Shown one piece after another: positions 70 to 17,865 of a DNA stretch of 23,380 nt. This stretch comes from a virus. The position numbers were made by a program, and so were the translations under genes. The notes beneath the pieces are model-generated. The model saw only the letters and a program-made list of their open reading frames with translations. It did not search any database and was not told the DNA's origin. The stretch's first letter is position 1, and each line of letters begins with the position of its first letter. Location: IMG/VR virus record IMGVR_UViG_3300032516_000202, positions 1 to 23,380 of that record, one strand, 5' to 3'.

Positions 70-3000
70 TCACGTATCCTGTTCCCTGAAACCAAACTTC
101 ATTGTAAACCCTGATGGATTAGCCGGAGCCCCGACGCAATCGATCCATACCCATATGTAAGCGTACCCGGTAGTTTGTGCTCCGCTTGCTAAAGTGTGGT
201 TTGTTCCGTTTATTCTGTTCAGGATTTTGGGTGCGTTGACAGTCAGTAGTGTGCTTGTTGACCGCGTGTTGTTTTCACTGGCATAGAAATTAATTCCAAA
301 CGGAACAACTGGGGAAGCGTTGACCCACATCGTGTAGTTCTTGACATTCGTTGTGTTGAAATTCCGTATTCTGAAGATTCCAATTCCTGCCTTCTGCCCA
401 TAGGGAGTCACATTGTAGATTGTTGAATACGGGCAGGTGAACTTGAAAGTAGAAATCCCTGTAGGATAATAAATCCCAAACCCGGTTGAGTTGAAGGACG
501 CGCCCGATGTGTTTCTTGTGGTGTAATCGGCTTTCGAAAGATAGCAATACCAGTTGTATTCTCCTGGGAGCGGCATATTGTCTCCTGAAGCGTTGTACAA
601 ATAATTTCCGGTTCCAGGGATATATGAAGCGTTGTAGCGGATGTTGTTGATGTAGACATAAGAAGTTGCTGAATATGTAGTAGTTCCGTCATCTTTTGTG
701 TAGTTGCACCAGAACTCAACAGTCTGAGGTATAAGCGATGCTCCTAATGGATTCTTCCATGCAACAAGCGTTTCATTTATCGTGGTAACGTTTACATAAA
801 CAGATGCCCACGCGCCAAACTGCAAATTCGTTGCATTGTAGGCCCGGATCCAGATGAGGGAATTGTTGTCTATGACCATTCTGTGTAAGTTTATAGACAA
901 ACTCCCAGATGTTTCATTTGGATATACTGTTGCTGGAAGGCTCGCGTTGAAGATGCGGGACTGGTAATAGAATGTTCTGTTGTTTGAAAGTTTCACTTCG
1001 TAAGTGAGCCCGCTTATGGCTGTCCAAGTAAACGTGATGTTATTCGTGAGCGTCGTGTATGCCGTGTTGGCAGCTGGGAGAACTATTGTCGGAGCTCCAG
1101 GAGCAGTGAAGTCTACTTTGCTGATTGCAGTATATGTAGGTGTCTGATCAAAGTTGTTTGCAGTAACAACGGTTGATGAATTGTAGACATAATGGGTTCC
1201 CACTGCTCCGTTGGATGGGCTTCCACCACAGCTAGGGCTGTCTTCTCCATGCACGCCTCCAGCATTTGTTATTGCAGCTGCTGCTTTAGTGTAATTTCTC
1301 CCAAAGTAGTAGCTTCTGGTTCCTGCTCCTCCATCCCCCGGGCAACCTCCAACATATGAACAAGTAGTGCCACCCCTCCCCCCAACAGCAGAGATAGGAC
1401 CAAGAGTAAGTTTCATGGCGTCTATGCTGACATTCCCTCCAGTTCCACCTACCCCAGCCACACCTGGGTAAGCGCCACAAGAACCGCCTAAACCTCCATC
1501 TAAGTTAATTGTCCCGGTGCTGGAGAATTCACCAGTAGCTGTTGTGTTTATGGTTCCTCCTTTTGCTCCCGCACTTCCCTGTCCAGAAGATCCTCCGTAT
1601 CCGTAAATCAAACCAGTGTTGTTAACGAAACTTGTGTTGATGAATTTTAGATTTCCTCCGGAGCCACCAGCTCCAGAGAATAAGCCAGCAGATCCCCCAT
1701 AGAAGAAAATGTTTCCAGTACTGGTCATATTACGAGACGTTATGGTGATGTTTCTTCCGGGAGCCCCAGAAGAGCCACTCGCGTCTATAGTTCCATAGTT
1801 ATCAAATTCTTCTTGCGTTGTTATTTGTGTTGCTTGAGATGGCAAGGTGAGCGTGGTGCCACTGCTAATCTTTAGATATTGATGGGATATGTTGTAGCTA
1901 ACAGAGCCTGACAGCGTCATCGTGCAGTTCGCTTTCCATAAGCAAGATGGAGTTGCTGTAGTTGAGATGATCTGGAATGTTCCGTTGGTATAGTAATTGA
2001 CTAAGTCTGATTGTTCAGCATACCCCTGGCATCTCCAATTTCCCATCTGATTCGGAGTGAATGATGGAGATTCCCAAACATTCCAGTCGTCTGAACGGCG
2101 GGTTCCAACTACCCAAGTAGAGCTATCCCCTACAGCATAACTTCCGTCTGGTCTGATTATTTTAAAGGAGATGTCTACAGTGGTTTTGTTGTTGGTTGGA
2201 TAAAATTCAAACCCACACTTTCCAACAGACGTTGTAGCATAGTGAGCCCAGCGCGTGTAGTTGTCCATGTAATACAAGACAGACTGCAGACTTCCATATG
2301 CACCAGGTGCAGTGTAATTTACGATTGTGATTTGTGAAGAGAACGCTTCCGGAGCAGACTTCATGCTGTAGCCAGTATCGTTCACGATGACGGAGCAGTT
2401 GATCATGTCAGTCACATTTATCTTCCGGAGTGTCAAGTTAAGAACTCCAGTATGCTCTGGCAGGACCGTCGTGTTGTTCAGGAACCAGCGCCAGTATGCG
2501 GTAGCGTTTCGGGCATCTCCATCAGCATCAGAGAATGTGCCATTCGCGCAAGTCAAGATGCTCGTGTTGAAATATCCTGTGTCGTTGCTGGTGACAACAC
2601 TAGCAGCTTGAGTCGGAGCTGTGTTGTTCACTGTTATCCCAGTTGAATTGACTTCTATCCCCCACTGACTACTATCATAACAAGACAAGCCAACTTTCAA
2701 GGAATCAGATTTGTTCAATCCTGAAGTTGAAGTGTTAGTGTAATTTGTTTGATTCACCACCCAGTTATACCTCAAGTAAGAAGCTAACTTCGTTCCATTC
2801 AGATAAAACGTAAAGTTGCCCGTCATAGTGTTATTCTCTAAGTCTGAACAGTTGCCTGATGCATTGAAGTTAGCGGGGTTGTTCTTATATGGTGTCCCGA
2901 GAGTTGTGCCCGCAGAATTGTTTAGAAGAACAACTAATGAAGCAGTGGGCGCCGTATTTACTGCTGAAGCATAGAGTGTCAAATTCACAGTTAAATCTCT

Positions 3001-6000
3001 GGATGAGAAGTTGAATGTTGTTGTGTTCTGGACATAGTTGGCGAAGCTTGCGTTTATTGTATGGTTGTTCAACGTATAGTTAGCTGTGTTATTTGCATAG
3101 TAATCTGTGATGGTTATCCATGTGGTTAAGCCACCAGCCCCAGCTGTGGTTGCGAATAAGCTTTTTCCATTCTTGTCCGATACGTTCACGGACGCCGCGA
3201 GTGCTGCGGTTGTGTTGGTTACATTCACTCGACCATACCACTTTACTGTAAAATTACAGGGGGTACACGTGACGAATGATACTTTTGAAGCATTGAAACT
3301 TACGTTTAAGAACACACTGTTTTGAGAATTTAGGTCTAATTCGATATCTTTTGAACTCATGTTTGTTACTGTTGAATTTGCAAAAGTGTTATTATAACCC
3401 AGTGACTCTCCGTACATCCCAATCCCGAAAGTGCCGTTTGCCATGGTGATGTTGTTGAATATGTTGTTGCTTGCACTACCCAACGCCAACGAATAGTATA
3501 CGTTTGTTGAGGTTACATTTGTGGTTATGATCCCAGAACTCGAAGAAAGAAACACACCGTACTGTGATACATTCGTAAAGGTAACGTTAGTTATCATGCT
3601 GTTGGTCGTCGTTAAAATATAAATACTTCGTTCATGGTTTTTGATGTTGCAGTTCTTGATGGTGATGTTGTTTCTTGTCCCAGTTGTGTTGATTCCGTAG
3701 GCTCCTATTGATGTATTTCCGGTGATGTTATAGCCATTGCAGTTTAAGGTGATGTTATCCGCACCTATTGTTATGCAAGTCAAATCTGTTGAAGCGAGAT
3801 TATTGAAAAGTATTGTGTCAACTGTTATTGTTCCGCACACCGAGGACACAACTGCTTGTGTCGAGAACATCTCTGTTGAATTTTTCGTGCTGTAGCCACT
3901 GTCTTCAGTCTTGTAAGAACAGTTGATCCTGTCTGTTTCGTTTGCTCCGATAGCTGCTAGATCAAGTGATTGTGCAGTCTGCCCTCCGATTACGGTTCCA
4001 TTGAACCACCATCTCCATCGCCCAAGCCCTATTGTATCGGAATCCCCGTCGTTATAAGAACCATTGACACAAAGCAAAACATCTGCTTTTTTCGGTGTTG
4101 TGCTGTTTAAGGATGGCACAGCCACAGTTGGGGCCGTATTATTCACCGTGATTGTTGTACCGTTAGTCTGATTACCCCACAAGCCTCCATCGTAGCAAAT
4201 CAAACCCACTGTTAAAGAATCTGATTTGTTTAAACCACCTACGGAAGCATTCGTGTAGTTCGTCTGATTCGCCACCCAGTTATACGTCGTGTAATTTATG
4301 AGAAAGGTGTTGTTCAGGTAGAAGTTGAAAACTCCTTTCAGTGTTGCATTCTCCACGTCGGAGCAGTTTCCCGAAGCGTTGAAGTTGGTTGGGTTGTTTT
4401 TGAATGGTGTCCCAAGAGTTGTTCCAGCTGAATTGTTGAGCAAAACAACTGATGAAGCAATCGGGATAGTATTTGATGAAGCACCTTGCTCAGCTTCCAT
4501 TGAAACCAACATCCCATATTCAGCTTTAGCCCAATCAGCCGTTTTTGTGTCCGTTGAAATCCTGAATTCATCAATATAGCCAGCCCAGGAAGCAGTGTCA
4601 GCCCGCTCAAAAACATCTGCACCAATAGCGAATCTCGGTGAACCATCAATCGCTGTTCCTGTATTGCCCGAGGATTTCAGTGTCCCGTTCACATATATTG
4701 ACCCCGTAGTCGTGCCGTTATTCATGAAATTATAAAGCGTCCATGTATTGGAGCATACGCCAACTGCCTGTAATCTTGTGCCATACCCATCCCTTGAAAA
4801 GCTTATGGTTTTTGTAGTATCTGCATAAGTTGCTGCCCCCGTCCCATATGGCGGAGAAACTACAGCATAGCTCGAAAGGAACCCTGCTATTGTAGCAGAT
4901 CCAGGAAGCCAATCATAATACCAGCCTTCGAATGTTCCAGCAGCTTTCGTAAATAAATAGACATTTGTGAAATTTACATATTTTCCAGCTACGTTTCGAG
5001 TTACTCCGTAAAACAAGGAATAACCAAACTTCGAGGAAGTGTTTAAGAAGGGAGTCGGGGCTGCGCTTCCTGTCATTGCGTGGTCAGCGTATTGCGAACT
5101 GTCCTCTACTGCTTTATGAGCGCTGTTTCCGAGTGTAGTTTCCCCAAAGTGATAAACTCGGATATACCCACTTTGATTCCATAAAGTGTGGGGGTCTTGT
5201 GCATCTGCTACAGTATTAGAACCGTAGTAGAAATAAGCAGTCGTGTTCGCCATCCCTGTCCCAATTCCGTTGGTCAAATTGACCGAAAACCAAACGATAG
5301 TCGCTGTAGTGTTGCAGGTGTTATTTTCGATTTCATAGGGAAGCAAAAGCAATTCCGTGCTATCTACAACCCGCAAATCCTTGCATGTTTCGTTCATTTT
5401 TCCGGCAGTTATCAGAGCATTAGTATCTACCGTCATTCGTACAGGGAAAAAGTTTAATGTCGTTGCCGTTGTAGAGTTTATCTGTATCAATTTTTTATAA
5501 CCCCATGTTGCGTTCCACCAGGGGTCGAGGATGACTGCAGGAACCGTCTTATCAAGGAATGCCGATTGAATAGAATCGCTCGTTCTCTTCATCAGAATAT
5601 CATATTTTCCGTTCGTGTTCGGCTTCACTTCAATAGTCGCTTTCAACTGCCTTTTCTGCCCCTGAGTAAATGAAACATTCTCTACATAGTAATAAGTTAT
5701 CCCACCGTAATCGGCAACCTTGAACGATGGACCAACATCAACCCAATCATCCCAATACTCGAGATGCTGACCTGTTTGACCGTAATAAGTCTGATTGTAT
5801 TGACAGCTCATGCTTGTGGGAAAAAACCTAGGAGAAGGACAATCTAAAGTCTTGTTTGTTGCATTAGACGCATAGTAGCACCATACATGCGTATTGTTTA
5901 TTATTCCTGCAGAAGTACCATCACAAACCACAGTCTGAAGCGATAGAAGGTTCCCATAATCAGGAACAGTGTGAGATACATTCAAAACCCAAGTTGAAAC

Positions 6001-6327
6001 CGAAGTCGGTCGAGCATCTGGAGGATTGAAGCCAAAGTAAGAATCTATGTATTGAGTGCCCGTCAAGTTAGAAGTAACGTTGATGTAAACAGTGTTCCTG
6101 ATATCGTTCAAGGTATGTGGAAACACAGATATTTCTCCCCACTCATTGAAATACCTTATTGAATTCCCTATGATTTGAGGAGAAGAAACATTTGCACCTG
6201 TGGTTATATTAGGGATTGTATTTTCCTCAGGCTTGCTGTTCATAAAGACTACGGCAAATCCGAAGATAGCCAAGATAAACGCAAGAATTCCAAACTGTTT
6301 TATGTCTTGGGTATCCATGTCAGTCAC
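70..6327 (-). CDS. Giant multidomain surface/adhesin-like protein (2085 aa)
   Basis: Last complete gene of the tail operon. A membrane segment at about residues 12-30 (FGILAFILAIFGFAVVFM) follows a very short N-terminus. A DUF2341-like domain starts at W270-W271 and ends near 375 (YFYYGS). A LamG/concanavalin-like domain spans about 390-602. A 208-residue unit (619-826) recurs at 1124-1334. Between the copies lie a NosD-like right-handed parallel beta-helix (about 830-1020) and an Ig-like segment (about 1030-1120). A Gly-rich stretch covers about 1511-1712, an FN3-like domain about 1734-1846, and a beta-rich C-terminus follows. N-X-S/T sequons occur throughout, by eye roughly a hundred or more. 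The start may be GTG at 6327, with GGGAG 10 bases upstream, or the ATG at 6318 just after the upstream gene's stop. By position it could be a receptor-binding fibre. Its membrane anchor and sequons instead resemble an exported archaeal cell-surface protein. The domain reading is good; the role is uncertain. Confidence 0.85.
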   Translation of the reverse strand: MTDMDTQDIKQFGILAFILAIFGFAVVFMNSKPEENTIPNITTGANVSSPQIIGNSIRYFNEWGEISVFPHTLNDIRNTVYINVTSNLTGTQYIDSYFGFNPPDARPTSVSTWVLNVSHTVPDYGNLLSLQTVVCDGTSAGIINNTHVWCYYASNATNKTLDCPSPRFFPTSMSCQYNQTYYGQTGQHLEYWDDWVDVGPSFKVADYGGITYYYVENVSFTQGQKRQLKATIEVKPNTNGKYDILMKRTSDSIQSAFLDKTVPAVILDPWWNATWGYKKLIQINSTTATTLNFFPVRMTVDTNALITAGKMNETCKDLRVVDSTELLLLPYEIENNTCNTTATIVWFSVNLTNGIGTGMANTTAYFYYGSNTVADAQDPHTLWNQSGYIRVYHFGETTLGNSAHKAVEDSSQYADHAMTGSAAPTPFLNTSSKFGYSLFYGVTRNVAGKYVNFTNVYLFTKAAGTFEGWYYDWLPGSATIAGFLSSYAVVSPPYGTGAATYADTTKTISFSRDGYGTRLQAVGVCSNTWTLYNFMNNGTTTGSIYVNGTLKSSGNTGTAIDGSPRFAIGADVFERADTASWAGYIDEFRISTDTKTADWAKAEYGMLVSMEAEQGASSNTIPIASSVVLLNNSAGTTLGTPFKNNPTNFNASGNCSDVENATLKGVFNFYLNNTFLINYTTYNWVANQTNYTNASVGGLNKSDSLTVGLICYDGGLWGNQTNGTTITVNNTAPTVAVPSLNSTTPKKADVLLCVNGSYNDGDSDTIGLGRWRWWFNGTVIGGQTAQSLDLAAIGANETDRINCSYKTEDSGYSTKNSTEMFSTQAVVSSVCGTITVDTILFNNLASTDLTCITIGADNITLNCNGYNITGNTSIGAYGINTTGTRNNITIKNCNIKNHERSIYILTTTNSMITNVTFTNVSQYGVFLSSSSGIITTNVTSTNVYYSLALGSASNNIFNNITMANGTFGIGMYGESLGYNNTFANSTVTNMSSKDIELDLNSQNSVFLNVSFNASKVSFVTCTPCNFTVKWYGRVNVTNTTAALAASVNVSDKNGKSLFATTAGAGGLTTWITITDYYANNTANYTLNNHTINASFANYVQNTTTFNFSSRDLTVNLTLYASAVNTAPTASLVVLLNNSAGTTLGTPYKNNPANFNASGNCSDLENNTMTGNFTFYLNGTKLASYLRYNWVVNQTNYTNTSTSGLNKSDSLKVGLSCYDSSQWGIEVNSTGITVNNTAPTQAASVVTSNDTGYFNTSILTCANGTFSDADGDARNATAYWRWFLNNTTVLPEHTGVLNLTLRKINVTDMINCSVIVNDTGYSMKSAPEAFSSQITIVNYTAPGAYGSLQSVLYYMDNYTRWAHYATTSVGKCGFEFYPTNNKTTVDISFKIIRPDGSYAVGDSSTWVVGTRRSDDWNVWESPSFTPNQMGNWRCQGYAEQSDLVNYYTNGTFQIISTTATPSCLWKANCTMTLSGSVSYNISHQYLKISSGTTLTLPSQATQITTQEEFDNYGTIDASGSSGAPGRNITITSRNMTSTGNIFFYGGSAGLFSGAGGSGGNLKFINTSFVNNTGLIYGYGGSSGQGSAGAKGGTINTTATGEFSSTGTINLDGGLGGSCGAYPGVAGVGGTGGNVSIDAMKLTLGPISAVGGRGGTTCSYVGGCPGDGGAGTRSYYFGRNYTKAAAAITNAGGVHGEDSPSCGGSPSNGAVGTHYVYNSSTVVTANNFDQTPTYTAISKVDFTAPGAPTIVLPAANTAYTTLTNNITFTWTAISGLTYEVKLSNNRTFYYQSRIFNASLPATVYPNETSGSLSINLHRMVIDNNSLIWIRAYNATNLQFGAWASVYVNVTTINETLVAWKNPLGASLIPQTVEFWCNYTKDDGTTTYSATSYVYINNIRYNASYIPGTGNYLYNASGDNMPLPGEYNWYCYLSKADYTTRNTSGASFNSTGFGIYYPTGISTFKFTCPYSTIYNVTPYGQKAGIGIFRIRNFNTTNVKNYTMWVNASPVVPFGINFYASENNTRSTSTLLTVNAPKILNRINGTNHTLASGAQTTGYAYIWVWIDCVGAPANPSGFTMKFGFREQDT
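2325..2958 (-). repeat. Internal protein repeat, copy 2 (about 211 aa)
   Basis: Encodes residues about 1124-1334 of the giant surface protein. It opens with NTAPTASLVVLLNNSAGTTL and keeps the landmarks of copy 1: FNASGNCSD, NQTNYTN, GLNKSDSL, ITVNNTAPT, YWRWFLNN, LTCANG and INCSVIVNDTGYS. DNA identity is clear only in short blocks, so the duplication is not recent. The beta-helix region separates the two copies. Confidence 0.8.
3850..4473 (-). repeat. Internal protein repeat, copy 1 (about 208 aa)
   Basis: Encodes residues about 619-826 of the giant surface protein. It opens with NTIPIASSVVLLNNSAGTTL and includes FNASGNCSD, NQTNYTN, GLNKSDSL and ITVNNTAPT. A WRWWFNGT block, a cysteine (LLCVNG) and INCSYKTEDSGYS follow. 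The same blocks appear in the same order in copy 2. The layout suggests two adjacent Ig/PKD-like beta-sandwiches per copy. Confidence 0.8.
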
Positions 6328-6601
6328 GTTTCAGAATTCTCCCTTGCCAATCAACAAATGTCGGGGAAGGGAGATTTTCATTCCTCCGCTTTTCGAGAAC
6401 GAACTCCTTTAACAGAACTCGCTGCTTTTCCAATAGTTTGTCCAGTTCTGTTTTATGAACGTAGAGATCCTTGCTGGTCGTAGCTCCAGGAGGCAGAGGG
6501 CGAATTCGGCATATTTTCCTCAAGCTCCTTATGCTTTCAGTCCTTGAAGCTATCTGTTCATCCAGTTCCTTGAGTGACCGTTCTAATTCAGCGAGGCTCA
6601 T
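6320..6601 (-). CDS. Small coiled-coil protein of the tail operon (93 aa)
   Basis: Unrecognised family. Residues 1-30 (LAELERSLKELDEQIASRTE) and about 50-75 (KTELDKLLEKQRVLLKEF) form two amphipathic helices with heptad-like leucines, joined by a Pro-rich turn (IRPLPPGATT). A hairpin of helices or a coiled-coil oligomer is likely. The C-terminus is short and polar. Its ATG overlaps the stop of the upstream gene (ATGA), and a GGGGTGAT ribosome-binding site precedes it. Its stop lies next to the start of the giant surface protein. It could be a tail-tip or fibre-attachment component or a fibre chaperone; position is the only support. Confidence 0.75.
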   Translation of the reverse strand: MSLAELERSLKELDEQIASRTESIRSLRKICRIRPLPPGATTSKDLYVHKTELDKLLEKQRVLLKEFVLEKRRNENLPSPTFVDWQGRILKRD

Positions 6602-7137: not shown

Positions 7138-9138
7138 TCAGGCCACCCCCCTCATCTTCTCGGAGAGCCTTCGGTCCACTAGCTCCACGATCTTTCGCTT
7201 TAAATCATCGTTTAGGATACCCTGAACAGGAATATTGATGTTAATTCCGCCTCCTCCGCTTCCGGCTTTGAAGCCGACGATTGTGTCGCTTGAAGAGAAT
7301 GAGACAGGCGCTTGACCAGGTCGTTGAATGAAGTCACCCCAAGAGCCTACATCTCTATCTCCTAATCCAAGACTTTCTGGTGCCCCGCCTCTGGGATCTC
7401 CTGAAACAGGATTTCCAGCAGCATCATACCATTGGTCTTTTATTCTAGAACTTCCAGGGCCTATGTTTAGGTTGAGTGAGCCACCAGCACCTGCATACTT
7501 ACTTGCGCTATTCGTTGCATAAGCGTTCAATCCTGAACCAGTAAGCAGGAACTGGGAGAACGCCACGGCATTCGCATTCAGGTCGTCCATCGTTGCGCCC
7601 ATCTCGCCTGTTTGTTTCTCGAACATTTCTAAGGCTTCTGAAGATGAAAGAGCAGTTCCACTTAAAGTTGTAAATGAAGAAGTTGCCACATATTTAGCCG
7701 TATCGCTCATAAGGCACATACTGTCGTTTGTTGTTTTTAGAGTATCACCTAAAGCTTTTGCAGGTGCTTCGGCACTGAGCGGAGTGCGTAAACTCATGGT
7801 TATTGGAGCGAGATGGAGAAGATTATAGACTACATCTGCTATTGTGCTGGACATTGTTCCTTTGTCAGCACCTTCTGGAAGCTTTCCAAACACACTTGGA
7901 AGTACTCGTTGTAAAGCGTTTGTAATCTCTAATGCCAACGGATATGTTGCTTTCTGTAAAGCATCAGCAGCTGCTTTTATTAATGGATTATCTTTCAGCA
8001 TGTACGCTAGTATAGCTGCAAAAATTGCTCCACCAATAAGTGCACCCAACGGACTAGCAGTGATAGCCAAACCGATTGCTGAACCCAGCCCAGAAATGGA
8101 GGTGGCTATCCCGCCACTCCATAAAGCGATTCCGGCAGCAAGTGATTTTCCAAGTCCAACTAACGTGAAAGTTAAAGTTGAAAACGAGATTCCTCCAAGT
8201 GCAAATTTTAATGCTGCAGCGGATAAAATTAATTTAGTCATTTCGTCAACAACTGGAGCTGCCGAGAAAAGTGCTCCGCCTACTCCACCTAAACTTGCCC
8301 CGACATCCCCTCCTGTCTTTCCCCCGACAGCAGTCCCTAGCATTCTCCCAGCAAACGATCCAGCCATTACAGTCAACGCAGCCATACCAAGTTTTGTTAT
8401 CAACGGTCCGAGCGTATCAGCTGCAGCCATAACTCCTTTAATAAGCCCTATTCCAAGAAGCATGCCGAACATAGCAAGATCCAATCCGACTATGCCTGAC
8501 TCCTTGGCGGATTTTATCATGTCCATCAAAAGTTTATAGACTGGTTTTAGTATTACGCTCACTAATTTAACAATCGGCCCGAGCATCCAGAGTATCGGAA
8601 GAAGCAACGGAATAAGAAGATTCACGACAGGCATGATGAGCAATCCCAATAGTTTCATGATTACTCCGAGAACCTTGAAGAGCACCCCGAATCCAGTCTC
8701 CAGCGTGTCCTTTAAAAGAATAAGTGCTCCTATGATTGGAGCTGCTACTCCGAGCGTCTTTCCTGCAACTCCAATTCCGTATGCAAGAGGACCACGAAGT
8801 CTTGCAGTTCCGGCGATACCTGCAAGCGCATCCTCAAAAAGCTTAACAAAACCAGATGTTTTTGCCTTTTCTTTTCCCAAACCCATGCTTTCAAACTGCG
8901 ATTTCATGCTTTTTTCGATCTCGCGCATCGCTTTCTTAGCATTATCCGCCAACTGTTTGTCAACCTTTTGTTGAATAATGATTGTAGATTTCTGCCATGA
9001 AGAGGTTGAGGCACTACCGCCTCCTCCTCCCCCAACAGCAGTGAATGACGGCATGCTTTTCTTGAGGTCCAGTATTTGCTTCTTAAAGTCATCTAGGTCG
9101 GCAGTCACCCGTATCTTAACTTCTCCAACGTCCGTCAT
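7138..9138 (-). CDS. Tape measure protein (666 aa)
   Basis: Sets tail length and is expected to leave through the tail tube during infection. Residues 1-30 and 55-85 are helical and charged. A Gly run lies at 36-41. A long, strongly hydrophobic, Ala/Gly/Leu-rich region covers about 100-385, with several stretches of membrane-segment character (for example VVNLLIPLLLPILWMLGPIV). The C-terminal part is polar and Gly-rich, ending in a beta strand (ININIPVQG) and an amphipathic helix (about 645-662). It is the largest gene after the tail chaperones, as expected for tape measures. At about 0.15 nm per residue the tail would be around 100 nm. The ATG follows AAGGTGAGGAA and overlaps the upstream stop by four bases. 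Sequence alone would not identify it, but composition, length and position agree. Confidence 0.88.
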   Translation of the reverse strand: MTDVGEVKIRVTADLDDFKKQILDLKKSMPSFTAVGGGGGGSASTSSWQKSTIIIQQKVDKQLADNAKKAMREIEKSMKSQFESMGLGKEKAKTSGFVKLFEDALAGIAGTARLRGPLAYGIGVAGKTLGVAAPIIGALILLKDTLETGFGVLFKVLGVIMKLLGLLIMPVVNLLIPLLLPILWMLGPIVKLVSVILKPVYKLLMDMIKSAKESGIVGLDLAMFGMLLGIGLIKGVMAAADTLGPLITKLGMAALTVMAGSFAGRMLGTAVGGKTGGDVGASLGGVGGALFSAAPVVDEMTKLILSAAALKFALGGISFSTLTFTLVGLGKSLAAGIALWSGGIATSISGLGSAIGLAITASPLGALIGGAIFAAILAYMLKDNPLIKAAADALQKATYPLALEITNALQRVLPSVFGKLPEGADKGTMSSTIADVVYNLLHLAPITMSLRTPLSAEAPAKALGDTLKTTNDSMCLMSDTAKYVATSSFTTLSGTALSSSEALEMFEKQTGEMGATMDDLNANAVAFSQFLLTGSGLNAYATNSASKYAGAGGSLNLNIGPGSSRIKDQWYDAAGNPVSGDPRGGAPESLGLGDRDVGSWGDFIQRPGQAPVSFSSSDTIVGFKAGSGGGGININIPVQGILNDDLKRKIVELVDRRLSEKMRGVA

Positions 9139-9440
9139 TTCCTCACCTTAACTGCATCCATCTGCCGTTTCTCTTCTCGCTTCGTCTCTTGTATCAGGAA
9201 CATGAACTGCTCCATGAGCTTCTGACTCGCCCCGTCAACGCGGAGCTTCGTCCTGATAGTCGCGCCTTTCCCGAAGAACCCCTTGATCAGTTCGACGAGT
9301 GGCGGGATCTCGGTGTCGAGAACCCCATTCACTCCTTCGGTGATCCAGGGGAACCAGAAGACTTCCTTGTTCAAGATGAACTTTTGGAAGATCTCTGAGG
9401 TTTCCTCGTCTCTGAGCGTGCCGTTGCGCACGCCGATCAT
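9135..9440 (-). CDS. Tail assembly chaperone, downstream (gpT-like) frame (101 aa)
   Basis: Lies between the first chaperone frame and the tape measure, the place of the lambda T frame. It has a short beta/turn N-terminus (MIGVRNGTLRDEE), a Trp-containing segment (EVFWFPWITEG) and a charged C-terminal helix (about 72-98). The ATG overlaps the upstream stop (ATGA). Unlike most neighbouring genes, it has no GGTGA or GGAGG ahead of the start. A slippery A AAU UUA directly before the overlap and a hairpin just after it indicate that it is mainly read as a -1 frameshift extension of the upstream protein. The fusion would have 206 residues. Family identity is inferred from position and signal, not from recognisable sequence. 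Confidence 0.8.
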   Translation of the reverse strand: MIGVRNGTLRDEETSEIFQKFILNKEVFWFPWITEGVNGVLDTEIPPLVELIKGFFGKGATIRTKLRVDGASQKLMEQFMFLIQETKREEKRQMDAVKVRK

Positions 9441-9446
9441 AAATTT
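9416..9446 (-). other. Probable programmed -1 ribosomal frameshift signal
   Basis: On the coding strand the first chaperone gene ends AAG AAA AAT TTA TGA. This contains the slippery heptamer A AAT TTA (9440-9446) in the correct X XXY YYZ phase, immediately before the stop. After 6 bases (TGATCG) comes a perfect 6-bp stem, GCGTGC and GCACGC, around the loop GCAACG (9416-9433), with a possible seventh G-U pair. A -1 slip makes ATG ATC GGC the next codons, exactly the downstream reading frame. Heptamer, phase, spacer and stem all fit known -1 frameshift signals. Confidence 0.75.
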
Positions 9447-9754
9447 TTCTTCTCGGTTTCAGTGAGTCGATTCACCTCTTCAGCTGTCTTGACCAGCTTG
9501 TCATAGGACGGGGAGTCAACTTGATCGAGAGAGAGCTTCAAGCTCGGTGGGGAAACTATACTGTCTTTCACCAGGCCATCCTGGTATTGCTCTATCTTTT
9601 CATAGTCCACCGTATAGTTCATCGGATCGTTTGGATTTACCTTAGCTGGCATGACCAGGCGCTTCAGGCGCCTCATCGCCGAACACGGAATGGACTTAAC
9701 CACCACAGTGATGGTTTCTCCACTCACCAAATCCACTTGAATCTCTTTCTCCAT
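9437..9754 (-). CDS. Tail assembly chaperone, upstream (gpG-like) frame (105 aa)
   Basis: Sits between the tail tube and tape measure genes, like lambda G, whose product coats the tape measure during tail assembly. The N-terminus is a beta hairpin (EIQVDLVSGETITVVVKSIP), followed by a basic helix (SAMRRLKRLVMP) and an alpha-helical, acidic C-terminus ending in TEKKNL at the frameshift site. This beta-then-helix layout with an early conserved residue block is common in tail chaperones. I chose the ATG at 9754, which has GGAGATGAT eight bases upstream; a TTG one codon earlier is possible. Most ribosomes should stop at TGA, and a minority should shift into the next frame. Confidence 0.8.
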   Translation of the reverse strand: MEKEIQVDLVSGETITVVVKSIPCSAMRRLKRLVMPAKVNPNDPMNYTVDYEKIEQYQDGLVKDSIVSPPSLKLSLDQVDSPSYDKLVKTAEEVNRLTETEKKNL

Positions 9755-9783
9755 CAAATCATCTCCACGCCCTACTTGAGCGT

Positions 9784-10821
9784 TTAAGCTGGATACGTTA
9801 CGCTGTTGTTGTCTGTGGTCACGATTCCTGTCTCAGTCAACCCATAGAGGTGCCCGGACAGCTCCATCTTTGTGATGTCACCGACTCTCGAGGGGATGTT
9901 GACCGTGTCCCACTTTACGTTGGTCAGGTCGAAGTTGATCTTCCTCAAGTAGGTCGTTGCACCAAGATTCGAATATGTCAGGTTGAACGCTTCAATCGTT
10001 GCATCTCCCTGCGCTGCTACAGTGAACGGAGAGGCTGCGTCCCCGAGGAATTTGTTAAACCTGTTCAGAGCAGCGATGTTGTTGAATATCAACGTAGTCC
10101 TTACATCCATCACGAATGTCTTGGGCATGACTTGCTGAACAAGCCTTGAGCCCAGTCCATAGATCGACTCGAGGTTGTTGCTGATCGTTATGTCAACATC
10201 CTGCACATCAGCCACGGAACTCCCTCCAAGTGTAACTGTTCCATATTGAGGGGGTTGAACCGTATCTGTGTCGTATGTTATCGGATAAGAGGTAGTTGCA
10301 GGCGTGTAAACCTGAACGTTCTGCCCTATGATATCCAACGACACTTCAAGCGGAGCATCGAGCGTTCCCTTGAAAGTCATGCTGTTGATTTTGCACCCAG
10401 TGTACATCTCCTGCGTTCCGGTGCTGGAGCCACCATGCTGCACGAGCATGGAGAACGATCCTAGAAGGGAGTTTGGAGGAACCAATGACGTTCCAAACGT
10501 GTGAGCCTGCGCCGAATCAACTGTCGTTCTTACGTCTGTCCCGATGCCATAAGCAAGGAACCTCCCAATCTGGAAGGACCCGCTGATCGAACCAGACACT
10601 TCGAACTTGGTGGCAACATCCTGCTGCGCAAGCCTACTCCCAAGCCCGAAGCTCCTAACGAGGTTGTTCTTCATGCTCATCGAACATTCAGGAGTAAGAA
10701 GCCCAAGTGTCTTGGTCCACGTGGTTGATGTTGCCAGTGTACCGTAAGCAGCCTCATTCTGAATCCAGACCGAAGCGGTTGTCCCTGGATACACTTCCGT
10801 TATTGCTGTTTCGCCTGTCAT
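9784..10821 (-). CDS. Major tail tube protein (345 aa)
   Basis: Polymerises into the tail tube. It is nearly all beta structure, rich in Ser, Thr and Gly, and lies directly before the tail chaperones. Two halves share a motif: NNLVRSFGLGSRLAQQ near residue 60 and NNLESIYGLGSRLVQQ near 220. Each is followed by a beta strand (KFEVSGSISGSF and KTFVMDVRTTLIF). This indicates a duplicated tube fold, resembling the two-part Phage_tube_2 type of tube protein. The start is the ATG at 10821 (MTGETAITEVYP), preceded by AAGGAGGGATAAC. The longer reading from 10863 would have no such site and would overlap the previous gene. The upstream gene stops one base before. No sheath gene is present next to it, which suggests a non-contractile tail. 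Confidence 0.85.
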   Translation of the reverse strand: MTGETAITEVYPGTTASVWIQNEAAYGTLATSTTWTKTLGLLTPECSMSMKNNLVRSFGLGSRLAQQDVATKFEVSGSISGSFQIGRFLAYGIGTDVRTTVDSAQAHTFGTSLVPPNSLLGSFSMLVQHGGSSTGTQEMYTGCKINSMTFKGTLDAPLEVSLDIIGQNVQVYTPATTSYPITYDTDTVQPPQYGTVTLGGSSVADVQDVDITISNNLESIYGLGSRLVQQVMPKTFVMDVRTTLIFNNIAALNRFNKFLGDAASPFTVAAQGDATIEAFNLTYSNLGATTYLRKINFDLTNVKWDTVNIPSRVGDITKMELSGHLYGLTETGIVTTDNNSVTYPA

Positions 10822-10822
10822 G

Positions 10823-11029
10823 TTATCCCTCCTTTGTAAGAACAGGAACAATCTTGATTCCAAGCATCAGTGCGTGCTCGTAATCCTGCTCACCAATCCA
10901 CTGTTTTATTTTTGTTTCCCCACTGGGGTATATCCATCTCGAAAACTGAAGTGGAAATTTGTATTCCACTTCCTTCTGCTCTTCAACTACTTTGTCAGAA
11001 GGAACATAAACGTATTTTTCTTTTGTCAT
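10823..11029 (-). CDS. Small unidentified tail-operon protein (68 aa)
   Basis: A short charged protein, MTKEKYVYVPSDKVVEEQKE at its start, with a central aromatic segment (KFPLQFSRWIYPSGE) and an ILE/VAL-rich end (HALMLGIKIVPVL). It has no membrane segment and no Cys motif. The ATG has GAGGTGA upstream at good spacing, so translation is well supported. It lies tightly between the tail terminator and tube genes; its stop overlaps the ribosome-binding site of the tube gene. A minor tail or tail-joining role fits the position, but nothing in the sequence shows it. Confidence 0.75.
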   Translation of the reverse strand: MTKEKYVYVPSDKVVEEQKEVEYKFPLQFSRWIYPSGETKIKQWIGEQDYEHALMLGIKIVPVLTKEG

Positions 11030-11560: not shown

Positions 11561-12060
11561 CCACGCGTGAACATATCTGCAAAGATTCCCTTGATTTTCT
11601 CGCCATGTTGCCCTTCAGCATAGAGTGCTGCAGTAGGCTCCATGTATTTGTGAGCCTGGACTTCGATTGGCTTGTCCGGCATGGGTTTACCCTTCTTTTC
11701 TGAGTACCAGCGCTTCAATGTAGGCGATGGTTGCGCGGTTCCACCAGTTGAGAGAAATACAGCATAGGAAACCGTGGGAGAAATCTCAAATCCTAGATCT
11801 CCAGTGTTCTTAATCCCCAAGCTATTCAACAACGATCCTTCCCAAACAGGCAACATTCCCAGGGATACAGCAGCACTTTTTGACATTGACTCGAGAGACA
11901 CGGGATTAAAATTAGGAACTGCTGGCCCCTCGTATATAGTATAGACTGCACGATCTTTGAGATCAGCCATAATCTCTTCAGTCACGGCACTCAGGGCTTT
12001 GTCTGTGAGTGCTTTGAGTTTTCCTTCGTCTATCGTGACAGAAGTTATTTCAATCTTCAT
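11557..12060 (-). CDS. HK97 gp10-like head closure / minor tail protein (167 aa)
   Basis: Expected to join head and tail. A helical N-terminus (KLKALTDKALSAVTEEIMAD) is followed by ISPTVSYAVFLSTGG, then a basic segment (TLKRWYSEKKG) and KYMEPTAALYAE. The pattern of a Tyr-Ala strand followed by a Thr-Gly turn, and a late motif ending in PA with a terminal helix, is typical of the HK97-gp10-like family. The length fits. The ATG overlaps the upstream stop (ATGA) and has GGTGAAGGT before it, so it is translationally coupled to the adaptor gene. Its stop codon lies at the edge of promoter C, making it the last gene of the head unit. Confidence 0.75.
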   Translation of the reverse strand: MKIEITSVTIDEGKLKALTDKALSAVTEEIMADLKDRAVYTIYEGPAVPNFNPVSLESMSKSAAVSLGMLPVWEGSLLNSLGIKNTGDLGFEISPTVSYAVFLSTGGTAQPSPTLKRWYSEKKGKPMPDKPIEVQAHKYMEPTAALYAEGQHGEKIKGIFADMFTRG

Positions 12061-13190
12061 ATTACCTTCACCGAGAGTTTTCTTCCAACAGCTTCGTAGA
12101 TCTCTTTGACGTCTTCCTTCAGCGCATTTATATGCCTGGTCGGAACATCAAGAGAAGCATTAGGCATTCCAAGAAGCCGGGACCTAAGAACCTCGATGGC
12201 GGTGAGCTTTACACTGAGTTCCTCGATTAGTTTCGGGACATCCGTGTAGCCATAAGTGTAAGTGACTGAAACGTTCTGCACTCCCTTCGTGAAAAGCAAC
12301 CCACTGTCCACGTGCAGGTAGATGATGCCTTCTTCTGTGAGGATATCATAGTCTGCAGCATCTACAGCAGTTCCGCCAACGGAGAAAGCCGAAACAGCAA
12401 CAATAGGAAAGTTCTTGAGAAGCAGGGTTCTTTCATCAATAAACTCTGCGTCCACAGGCTTGAAGTCGCTAGCGAGGTTGGAGAAGTCCTGGGCTTCGTA
12501 GGAAAACCAGTTGACGGTGTTCCAGGAGTTCCCGTTGTAAACCTGAGTGACGGATGCTACCCCATAGAATGTGCGTCCGAGCATCTGGTCTATGTGCGCT
12601 TGGCTTCTCTGGAGATAATCAGAAACCAGGCGTGAAGAATAGTCCGACCACCAATAATCTGCGGTCACTGCTTGGGCGAGTGTCGGTATTGAAGCGGTTA
12701 CGAATGTAATTCTGCCAAATTCGCTGTCGAATGAATAGTCATCATTGACCACCTTCAGGGCCCCGGCAACATAGACTTTTAGCGTCCCTTCCACTATTTT
12801 CTTGTTGGCTAGGTCGAAAATCGCAAGAGAGCCAGTTCCAGTTCCAACTGCTTCTGAATATTGTTCGTTATACCAGTTCATGTATTCATAAACCTTTTTC
12901 ACCGTCGCATAGGTTCCGATGGTTGAGGTCTGAACTGCACTGGATTTTGCTGATTCTGCTGCGTTGATGCTGTCATAATTGGAGATTTTGTACCACGCAG
13001 TTGAACTTCCAGTCAGGTCGTAGTAAAGGTAATCCTGCAGGTTGACGGTCCCAAGCGCAGTTCCATACGACGCTCCGGCTGTGGTTGCAGTGTAGACTTT
13101 CACTTGGTCATATTGAGTGGCTTCAGTAAGAGGATCCCAGCGAATTGAATTCCCGCCACCCATGTATTTGACCGAGGTTATTTTTGGCAT
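12057..13190 (-). CDS. Head-tail adaptor with N-terminal FN3-like domain (377 aa)
   Basis: Residues 1-90 look like a fibronectin type III domain: ITSVKYMGGGNSIRWDP, ATQYDQVKVYTA, LYYDLTGSSTAWYKIS and AESAKSSAVQTS follow the FN3 strand pattern. A segment at about 130-182 (YVAGALKVVNDDYSFDSEFG) is a separate beta module. The C-terminal half (VSVTYTYGYTDVPKLIEELS, then LTAIEVLRSRLL) matches the end of gp6/gp15-like head-tail connectors, in which a strand with a YG turn leads into a long helix. The family is usually about 100-200 residues, so this protein carries extra domains that probably point away from the neck. The ATG has GTGAGGT upstream. It is coupled to the gp10-like gene by a 4-base overlap. 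Confidence 0.75.
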   Translation of the reverse strand: MPKITSVKYMGGGNSIRWDPLTEATQYDQVKVYTATTAGASYGTALGTVNLQDYLYYDLTGSSTAWYKISNYDSINAAESAKSSAVQTSTIGTYATVKKVYEYMNWYNEQYSEAVGTGTGSLAIFDLANKKIVEGTLKVYVAGALKVVNDDYSFDSEFGRITFVTASIPTLAQAVTADYWWSDYSSRLVSDYLQRSQAHIDQMLGRTFYGVASVTQVYNGNSWNTVNWFSYEAQDFSNLASDFKPVDAEFIDERTLLLKNFPIVAVSAFSVGGTAVDAADYDILTEEGIIYLHVDSGLLFTKGVQNVSVTYTYGYTDVPKLIEELSVKLTAIEVLRSRLLGMPNASLDVPTRHINALKEDVKEIYEAVGRKLSVKVI

Positions 13191-14043: not shown

Positions 14044-14322
14044 TCATCGAGTCCCGATCACCAGGCACGACACAACTCCGGTCGTAGTTCCACCAAAGGT
14101 TATGGTCCCTGCACTGAATGTGGAGGGGTTCATGGCGCCGTTGGCGTCCCTTATCGCAAGCACGAACAGCACTGATCCAAGACAATGATCTTTGTAGAGC
14201 GTTGCCGTTGAAAGAGTGATGTAGTCGCTTGACGCCGTAACCAATGCTTTCACTACAAGTGCTTTCACTCCCAATTCTGGGATGAGACCCCGAAGAGTCG
14301 CTGCCGTTACTTCTGCAGTCAT
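14044..14322 (-). CDS. Small capsid-operon protein, tandem paralogue 2 (92 aa)
   Basis: Close relative of the adjacent upstream gene: both have EVTA, PELGVKA, VVKALV, SDYITLSTATLYK, CLGSVLF, AGTITFGGTTTG/AATITLTGSTTG and end VVSCLVIGTR or AVSCLVIGTR. A 23-bp DNA block (14207-14229) is identical in the two genes. The protein is a compact beta structure without charged helices. GGTGAT precedes the ATG. Following the major capsid gene, it is best explained as a capsid decoration (cement) protein. It lies just before the terminator, so it should be strongly expressed. Function is inferred from position. Confidence 0.82.
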   Translation of the reverse strand: MTAEVTAATLRGLIPELGVKALVVKALVTASSDYITLSTATLYKDHCLGSVLFVLAIRDANGAMNPSTFSAGTITFGGTTTGVVSCLVIGTR

Positions 14323-14327
14323 TCAAA

Positions 14328-14606
14328 TCACCGCGTCCCTATCACGAGACACGACACTGCTCCGGTGGTCGAACCTGTGAGAGTTATCGTTGCTGCGGTG
14401 AACGTTGATGCGTTCAAAGATCCGTCGGTGTCCCTCAAGGCGACTGCAAACAGCACAGATCCAAGGCAATTCCCCTTATAGAGAGTTGCTGTTGAAAGAG
14501 TGATGTAGTCGCTCTGGGTGTTGACGAGCGCTTTCACAACTATGGCTTTCACCCCTAATTCAGGGGCGAGGCCATAGTTGGTTACTGCTGTTACTTCAGC
14601 TACCAT
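14328..14606 (-). CDS. Small capsid-operon protein, tandem paralogue 1 (92 aa)
   Basis: First gene after the major capsid gene, with AAGGAGG upstream of the ATG. Begins MVAEVTAVTNYGLAPELG. It is the same length as its downstream paralogue and aligns with it without gaps, with most differences conservative. The 80-residue protein behind promoter B has a similar tail (SGDYLDVPFGT, then FYLLVIGR) and is probably a more distant third member. Genes in this place in HK97/lambda-like viruses often encode trimeric capsid decoration proteins, lambda gpD being the classic case; this one is not recognisably gpD. Confidence 0.82.
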   Translation of the reverse strand: MVAEVTAVTNYGLAPELGVKAIVVKALVNTQSDYITLSTATLYKGNCLGSVLFAVALRDTDGSLNASTFTAATITLTGSTTGAVSCLVIGTR

Positions 14607-16817: not shown

Positions 16818-17843
16818 CTAAGTCCTCAATACCTGGAATGATCCTGCTTCCTGCCAGTTGTTCGCCATCAACATCGTTGTGGGAACCTTGTTGTCTGCAG
16901 TTGCACCGAATGATTTACCAGTGAAACCAAAGTCGTTTCCGGTGATTACTCCGATACACCCAGTACCCAACGTCAAACACTCTGCGTTTGTCCCTGAGTT
17001 AAGTGCGGGGTAGCAGGTAAAACAGTTGTTCCGAATTATCAATCCGCTGATCCCGTCTGCAGCTACATAGATGTTGGTGTCAACACTCGTAGTCGGCCCA
17101 CTGAATATGTTGTCCTCGATCACAACATCCTGCACAACACCGTCAGAAGTTCCCTTCATGACAATATCGCCTACGTTCTTGTAGAAACGATTGCCTTTAA
17201 TCAGCGTCTGCCATGCTCCACCAAGTGCAGTCCACTGTATTGCGCCACCAGTCGCTGCGTTGGTCGCAGTTGTGCCGACACAGTTCTTGAAGTAGCAGCC
17301 GTATATCGTGGTTCCGAAAGCAGATTTTGTCTCAGCACTTCCCGAATCATCATCAAGGAGAATGCCTCCACCTGTGCCTCCGGCTCCGTTGATGCAGAGA
17401 TTCGCTATGAGGCAACCGGGTGCCCTGATCGTCAGGACTGGGCTCGTGGTAGTTGCTCCGATCTTGAGCTGTGGGAGTCCACCCTGAGTCCTTCCGCGGT
17501 TCACTCCGATTATCGAAAGGCGGTCTGTAGCTGGCGGGATTATTATGTTCTCAGTGTAGTTTCCCGGATCAGATCCTCCTGTCCCTATCTTGATCGATTC
17601 AACGAAAATCGTGTCACCGCTGGACGCAGCCGTCACCGCAGTCTGAATAAGTGCAAAGGCAGTCGCCCAACCCTTTCCATCGTTTGCAGCACTCCCAGTG
17701 TTGCCATCAACATACCACACATTCGCATGGGCATTCACTCCAGCGAGTCCCCCAGTAAAAGTGACTTGCTGGTCCCAAGTGTACGGACCCTTTGAATAAG
17801 GCGGTGATGCTCCGCCTCCGTTTATTCCTCTCAAACCTTCCAT
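16818..17843 (-). CDS. Right-handed parallel beta-helix protein in the head operon (341 aa)
   Basis: Residues about 40-85 (WYVDGNTGSAANDG, then GWATAFALIQTAVTAASSGD) match the well-known opening of pectate-lyase-like beta-helix proteins. Later repeats follow the coil pattern, for example LTIRAPGCLIANLCINGAGG, IYGCYFKNCVG, LIKGNRFYKN, VVIEDNIFSG and LIIRNNCFT. No catalytic residues can be assigned. The N-terminus before residue 35 is Gly/Pro-rich (GINGGGASPPYSKG) and may anchor it. The start is the ATG at 17843, with GAGGTGA six bases upstream. Beta-helix proteins of phages are often trimeric tailspikes or fibres that bind or cleave glycans. Its place between a small head protein and the protease suggests it decorates the head, but that is inference. 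Confidence 0.8.
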   Translation of the reverse strand: MEGLRGINGGGASPPYSKGPYTWDQQVTFTGGLAGVNAHANVWYVDGNTGSAANDGKGWATAFALIQTAVTAASSGDTIFVESIKIGTGGSDPGNYTENIIIPPATDRLSIIGVNRGRTQGGLPQLKIGATTTSPVLTIRAPGCLIANLCINGAGGTGGGILLDDDSGSAETKSAFGTTIYGCYFKNCVGTTATNAATGGAIQWTALGGAWQTLIKGNRFYKNVGDIVMKGTSDGVVQDVVIEDNIFSGPTTSVDTNIYVAADGISGLIIRNNCFTCYPALNSGTNAECLTLGTGCIGVITGNDFGFTGKSFGATADNKVPTTMLMANNWQEAGSFQVLRT

Positions 17844-17865
17844 AAATTTCACCTCGTATTCTTAG

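Follow-up and report, generated by a model that had tools for sequence, protein, structure and literature searches.

A −1 ribosomal frameshift at the tail genes is known in most long-tailed viruses, including archaeal ones; a downstream stimulatory structure is not required in every known case, and A AAU UUA is already established as a shift site in other systems, e.g. Rous sarcoma virus. A programmed frameshift is described for lambda G/GT and, as a conserved feature, for the tail genes of dsDNA phages (Xu, Hendrix and Duda 2004, as cited in PMC5009743). At the chaperone gene of archaeal tailed viruses, a −1 frameshift has been predicted for HVTV-1, HCTV-1, HCTV-2 and HCTV-5 (PMC5009743, PMC8211752) and at the same gene of Hardycor1 (PMC7911831), and the GenBank records of HCTV-1 and HCTV-2 carry joined chaperone genes. 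A 2021 review gives only one demonstrated archaeal case of programmed −1 frameshifting, fucA1 of Saccharolobus solfataricus (PMC8211752), the viral ones being predicted. The ranking of heptamers differs between E. coli and eukaryotic ribosomes (PMC4066793), and no ranking for archaeal ribosomes was found in the literature looked at.

The stretch of DNA analysed here, a virus contig of 23,380 bases referred to as the window, has its genes on the minus strand in the order terminase, portal, protease, SU10-like capsid protein, neck genes, tail tube, G, T, tape measure, distal tail genes and a 2085-residue DUF2341 protein. From the sequences compared below, the junction of G and T is very probably a site of programmed −1 ribosomal frameshifting in a tail assembly chaperone gene of the G/GT type, and the window is a further example of an arrangement for which annotation already exists in haloarchaeal viruses, among them HCTV-2 (Haloarcula californiae tailed virus 2, Saparoviridae, KC292028). 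In HCTV-2, genes 40/41 lie in the same gene order (protease, capsid, ..., tail tube, joined chaperone, tape measure), and a −1 heptamer likewise stands directly before TGA (A AAA AAC TGA); the differences are that the heptamer is AAAAAAC rather than AAATTTA, that T extends 162 codons past the stop rather than 99, and that the capsid protein is only about 23% identical to the window's, while the HCTV-2 frameshift is also a prediction. In its relative HHTV-2 (L089, KC292024), the region 5610-6553 is annotated as two genes, yet these stand in the same −1 relation, the first one ending G GAA AAC TGA, only a near-match to the HCTV-2 site.

The haloarchaeal siphoviruses HCTV-1 and Hardycor1 have a likewise predicted −1 shift between tail tube and tape measure genes, at GGGAAAC and GGGAAAT, respectively, but their chaperone sequences have no detectable similarity to that of the window. 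Lambda G/GT resembles the window in lying between the major tail protein and the tape measure, with a −1 shift near the end of G and a minor fusion product, both predicted for the window; it differs in slip site and efficiency and in showing no sequence similarity. With fucA1 the likeness would lie in −1 frameshifting by an archaeal ribosome, but that gene encodes a cellular enzyme and not a viral tail protein. An earlier note on this DNA had stressed that documented programmed frameshifting in archaea is scarce; the argument from rarity is weakened because a −1 shift at the chaperone gene had already been predicted or annotated in several haloarchaeal viruses.

The G/T junction in the window

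Gene G (9437..9754, minus strand) is a 105-residue open reading frame in the zero frame that starts at ATG 9754, with an in-frame TTG also at 9757, and lies between the genes of the tail tube protein upstream (9784..10821, minus strand; Pfam PF18906, E 4e-24; PHROG 290, E 1e-25) and the 666-aa tape measure protein downstream (7138..9138, minus strand; weak match to the L004 tape measure region). The TTP-G-T-TMP order is conserved among relatives. G had no match in Pfam and reached PHROG 344 (tail assembly chaperone) with an E of 0.074, the best relative reaching 0.0014. An AF2 model of G built on the relatives' alignment (pLDDT 86, pTM 0.74) found YqbN (3klu) and the HK97 tail assembly chaperone (2ob9) as its best Foldseek matches in the PDB, with about 13-16% identity, a TM of about 0.5 and E of 0.004-0.02, and among viral proteins the best matches were ones annotated as tail assembly chaperones, along with one from an uncultured archaeal virus; these top matches together had probabilities of 0.96-1.00 and a best E of 1.7e-4. 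The predicted fold of G thus matches that of a tail assembly chaperone.

On the minus strand, G ends with the codons GAG AAG AAA AAT TTA and the stop TGA (9439-9437). The slippery heptamer A AAT TTA (9446-9440), whose zero-frame codons are AAT TTA, directly adjoins this stop, a placement also found in HCTV-2, L091, L102, L047 and L076. The spacer TGATCG (9439-9434, six bases) is followed by a putative stimulatory hairpin (9416..9433, minus strand), in which GCGTGC (9433-9428) pairs with GCACGC (9421-9416) by six of six Watson-Crick pairs around the six-base loop GCAACG, before the next bases TCA. RNA folding extends the stem by an outer G-U pair (9434 with 9415), so the effective spacer is 5 nt. 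Frame T (9135..9440, minus strand; 101 codons) lies in the −1 frame relative to G and overlaps it by 22 nt; its open stretch starts 18 nt ahead of its own ATG (9440-9438). It continues for 99 codons past the G stop and has the codon usage of a coding frame. The earlier note had described the in-phase heptamer before TGA, the six-base spacer, the perfect 6-bp hairpin with its six-base loop, the −1 slip entering the downstream gene at its ATG and a 206-residue fusion; direct reading of the minus strand reproduced each of these, the length of the predicted fusion from ATG 9754 being 105+101 residues. T in the window aligns with the T frames of close relatives from just past the slip site and on both sides of a 34-residue insert, which lies mid-frame in the window's T relative to theirs. 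When profiles of the window's G and T were compared with distant relatives, the scores were weak; closer relatives aligned over the full length, and the predicted model of T had low confidence.

In the proposed mechanism, most ribosomes would translate the 105 residues of G and terminate at TGA, while a minority, held up by the hairpin located 5-6 nt further on, would shift back by a single base at A AAU UUA, with the tRNAs for Asn and Leu re-pairing to AAA and UUU. The slipped ribosomes would continue ATG ATC GGC... in the −1 frame and produce the G-T fusion as a minor product. By analogy with lambda, many copies of G could coat the tape measure protein and a few of G-T link it to tail tube subunits, resulting in a tube of the right length. 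We infer the slippage itself, its efficiency and its role in assembly, the role being taken from lambda (PMC5009743). The hairpin probably aids the slippage.

Of the 7554 codon sites in the genes of the window, 26 hold a canonical in-phase heptamer, and among the 24 window genes G is the only one with an overlap heptamer opening into a long −1 frame near its stop. By codon shuffling of the window's G alone, a heptamer arose in the 22-nt overlap with P ∼0.02. The hairpin is modest, with a folding z between −1.07 and −1.85 (−1.07 to −1.62 for stretches from 2 nt past the heptamer), and 8 of 200 shuffles folded as well over 60 nt from the stop codon. The window by itself is suggestive, and it is because the relatives keep the slip site that the case is decided. 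Elsewhere in the window, two adjacent 92-residue genes just downstream of the capsid gene (14328-14606 and 14044-14322, minus strand) are clear tandem duplicates, and the DUF2341-domain protein (70-6327, minus strand), rich in N-x-S/T and with an L004 counterpart at the same place, is probably a tail or surface adhesin.

The slip site among related contigs

Single-sequence searches with G, the tail tube protein and the window's terminase returned zero or two relatives, and relatives were gathered via a capsid alignment, which yielded about 90 related virus contigs; the nearest by capsid (49-62% identity) are L004, L090, L091, L092, L002, L094 and L005. A tail tube profile placed the tail tube gene in each contig, and G was defined as the first frame of 75 codons or more following it. 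In 24 contigs including the window, the end of G overlaps a longer −1 frame that precedes the tape measure gene. A canonical in-phase X XXY YYZ heptamer lies inside the overlap in 23 of these 24, which are not fully independent, versus 2.5 expected (codon-shuffle P ∼1e-24), the test allowing for the poly-A heptamers that arise more easily by chance in A-rich genes (shuffle P up to 0.26); the overlaps with a heptamer span 10-85 nt. Among close relatives (MCP identity at least 50%), all six carry a heptamer (P 5e-9). The heptamer count depends on the rule for picking G: the T-less L006, L040, L063, L080 and L057 are not counted, and L023 and L057 were left out because their 'G', despite a G/T-like first look, is a different kind of protein.

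About nine kinds of heptamer were found, i.e. AAATTTA, AAACCCT, CCCTTTA, AAAAAAA, AAAAAAC, AAAAAAG, TTTTTTG, CCCAAAT and GGGAAAG. Since the letters differ between relatives, it is the function that is kept and not the sequence. This is exemplified by the aligned ends of L004 and L090 (GTA AGC CCT TTA versus GTA AAC CCT ATT), where L004 uses C CCT TTA and L090 uses A AAC CCT, so that the site is shifted by one codon. The earlier note had proposed an alignment of relatives to see whether the heptamer is kept, and had counted relatives lacking one against the frameshift; the alignment shows the site retained while its letters vary, with the single exception of L018, in which the −1 overlap is kept and a canonical heptamer is absent. 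In L018 (16834-17315), there is no nearby T start and the overlap ends GTC TTG GGG GAA TAG, possibly allowing a single-tRNA slip. A single small gene and no T frame were observed between tail tube and tape measure in L006, L040, L063, L080 and L106 (L057 contig); judging from these gene contents, this branch appears to have lost the frameshift or never gained it. A tie between the loss of T and short tape measures was considered and dropped, as relatives with equally short tape measures keep T.

The same note had asked whether the stem is kept. As a group, the relatives are enriched for downstream structure: over 60 nt past the heptamer, the mean folding z was −1.46 at 23 sites versus −0.08 at 182 control sites from the same neighbourhoods (Mann-Whitney P 1.5e-5). 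In L004, an 8-bp stem that includes wobble pairs follows the heptamer at 5 nt, as in the window, but L047, L096 and L110 have no downstream structure. With some relatives structureless, such structure would be a frequent aid rather than a fixed part.

Whether T is read by other routes

The T frame could instead be a separate protein made from its own ATG by termination-reinitiation, the heptamer being incidental. Its ATG overlaps the G stop as ATGA, like other genes in the window, which would allow coupled re-initiation, and in L094 the T ATG is likewise right at the G stop. The ribosome-binding sites, however, argue against this route. By pairing to the 16S tail, T in the window reaches at best −3.2 kcal/mol versus −9.2 for G, −8.5 for the tape measure gene (GGTGAG), which also starts in an ATGA overlap, with T, and −11.5 for the tail tube gene. 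A few other listed starts in the window are as weak, namely those of a 170-aa gene, of 16818-17852 and of the MCP at its GTG, and these are possibly explained by start mis-calling. Across 12 contigs, the mean for T was −3.1 kcal/mol versus −8.9 for G and −6.1 for the tape measure gene (paired Wilcoxon P 2e-4). The absence of a ribosome-binding site at the T ATG, as noticed earlier, is thus borne out, and a strong site in relatives, which would have spoken for a separate T, was not found, the sites being weak throughout.

Several relatives, moreover, have no T start codon for tens of codons: the first ATG of L047 lies 108 nt past the G stop, and the first possible starts are a TTG at 150 nt in L079 and a GTG at 39 nt in L013. 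Ahead of any start, the T frame is nevertheless conserved. Between L091 and L102, the 13 T codons lying between the slip site and the earliest possible start contain six synonymous and two conservative changes (V/I, R/K), and since the changes are mostly synonymous, the stretch is under purifying selection as protein; as judged from the reading frames, it is one that only a frameshifted ribosome would read. This selection result comes from one pair, the other compared pairs being too diverged to inform. Together with the heptamers in all but one of the contigs, these observations leave a separately initiated T improbable, and free T may make a minor contribution in the window.

Still less probable is that the fusion arises by transcriptional slippage on A-runs. 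Many relatives do carry runs of about nine A, at which polymerase slippage is possible, but the window site AAAAATTT and those of L004 (CCCTTTA), L090 (AAACCCT), L047 (CCCAAAT) and L076 (GGGAAAG) are not homopolymers and keep the X XXY YYZ phase, and the enrichment of downstream RNA structure also stands against it. That the G/T pair is one gene broken by a base error in assembly or sequencing, a thought prompted by a single contig with no reads at hand, is practically negligible and already contradicted by the same −1 relation and heptamer in independent contigs from many metagenomes. Two further candidates for the window, +1 frameshifting and simple TGA readthrough, were rejected because T lies in the −1 frame of G. 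With −1 ribosomal frameshifting as the preferred reading, the G and T frames should be annotated as one joined gene.

Host and the wider group

An archaeal host is plausible for the window. The only isolates with a detectably related capsid protein are the haloarchaeal HHTV-2 and HCTV-2 (23-24% identity), and the link to Saparoviridae consists of this distant capsid similarity only. The other genes gave mixed matches: the terminase best matched Thermus phages and also HGTV-1/Hardycor1, the tail tube protein matched HCTV-1 and Bacillus phages, and the best portal matches were bacterial phages of Bacillus and Streptomyces. Provirus scans of 84,980 genomes found none, and a PCNA search of the relatives' contigs was empty and uninformative.

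It is possible, and we hold it with some doubt, that the window and its relatives together make up a large group of tailed viruses, so far undescribed, whose archaeal hosts would extend beyond the haloarchaea. In this group, the slip site would have been kept while the heptamer changed repeatedly, including to heteropolymeric kinds such as A AAU UUA, and T would have been lost in one branch. If so, the group would offer a natural series of sites in which to study how archaeal ribosomes frameshift by −1. The window contributes a clean site with clear bounds and strong comparative support, and the relatives add more than 20 sites with varied heptamers; if the host is archaeal, these make a ready panel for asking which slippery codons archaeal ribosomes accept. 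On L081, the rest of the L004 contig, about ten small proteins were observed to share the start motif M(A/P/S)NCRFHKR or NCRFRVR with bodies that are unlike, for example those at 2561-2965, 4010-4381, 4374-4739, 4720-5046, 5046-5417, 8467-8868, 10609-10857, 11693-11917 and 11898-12164.
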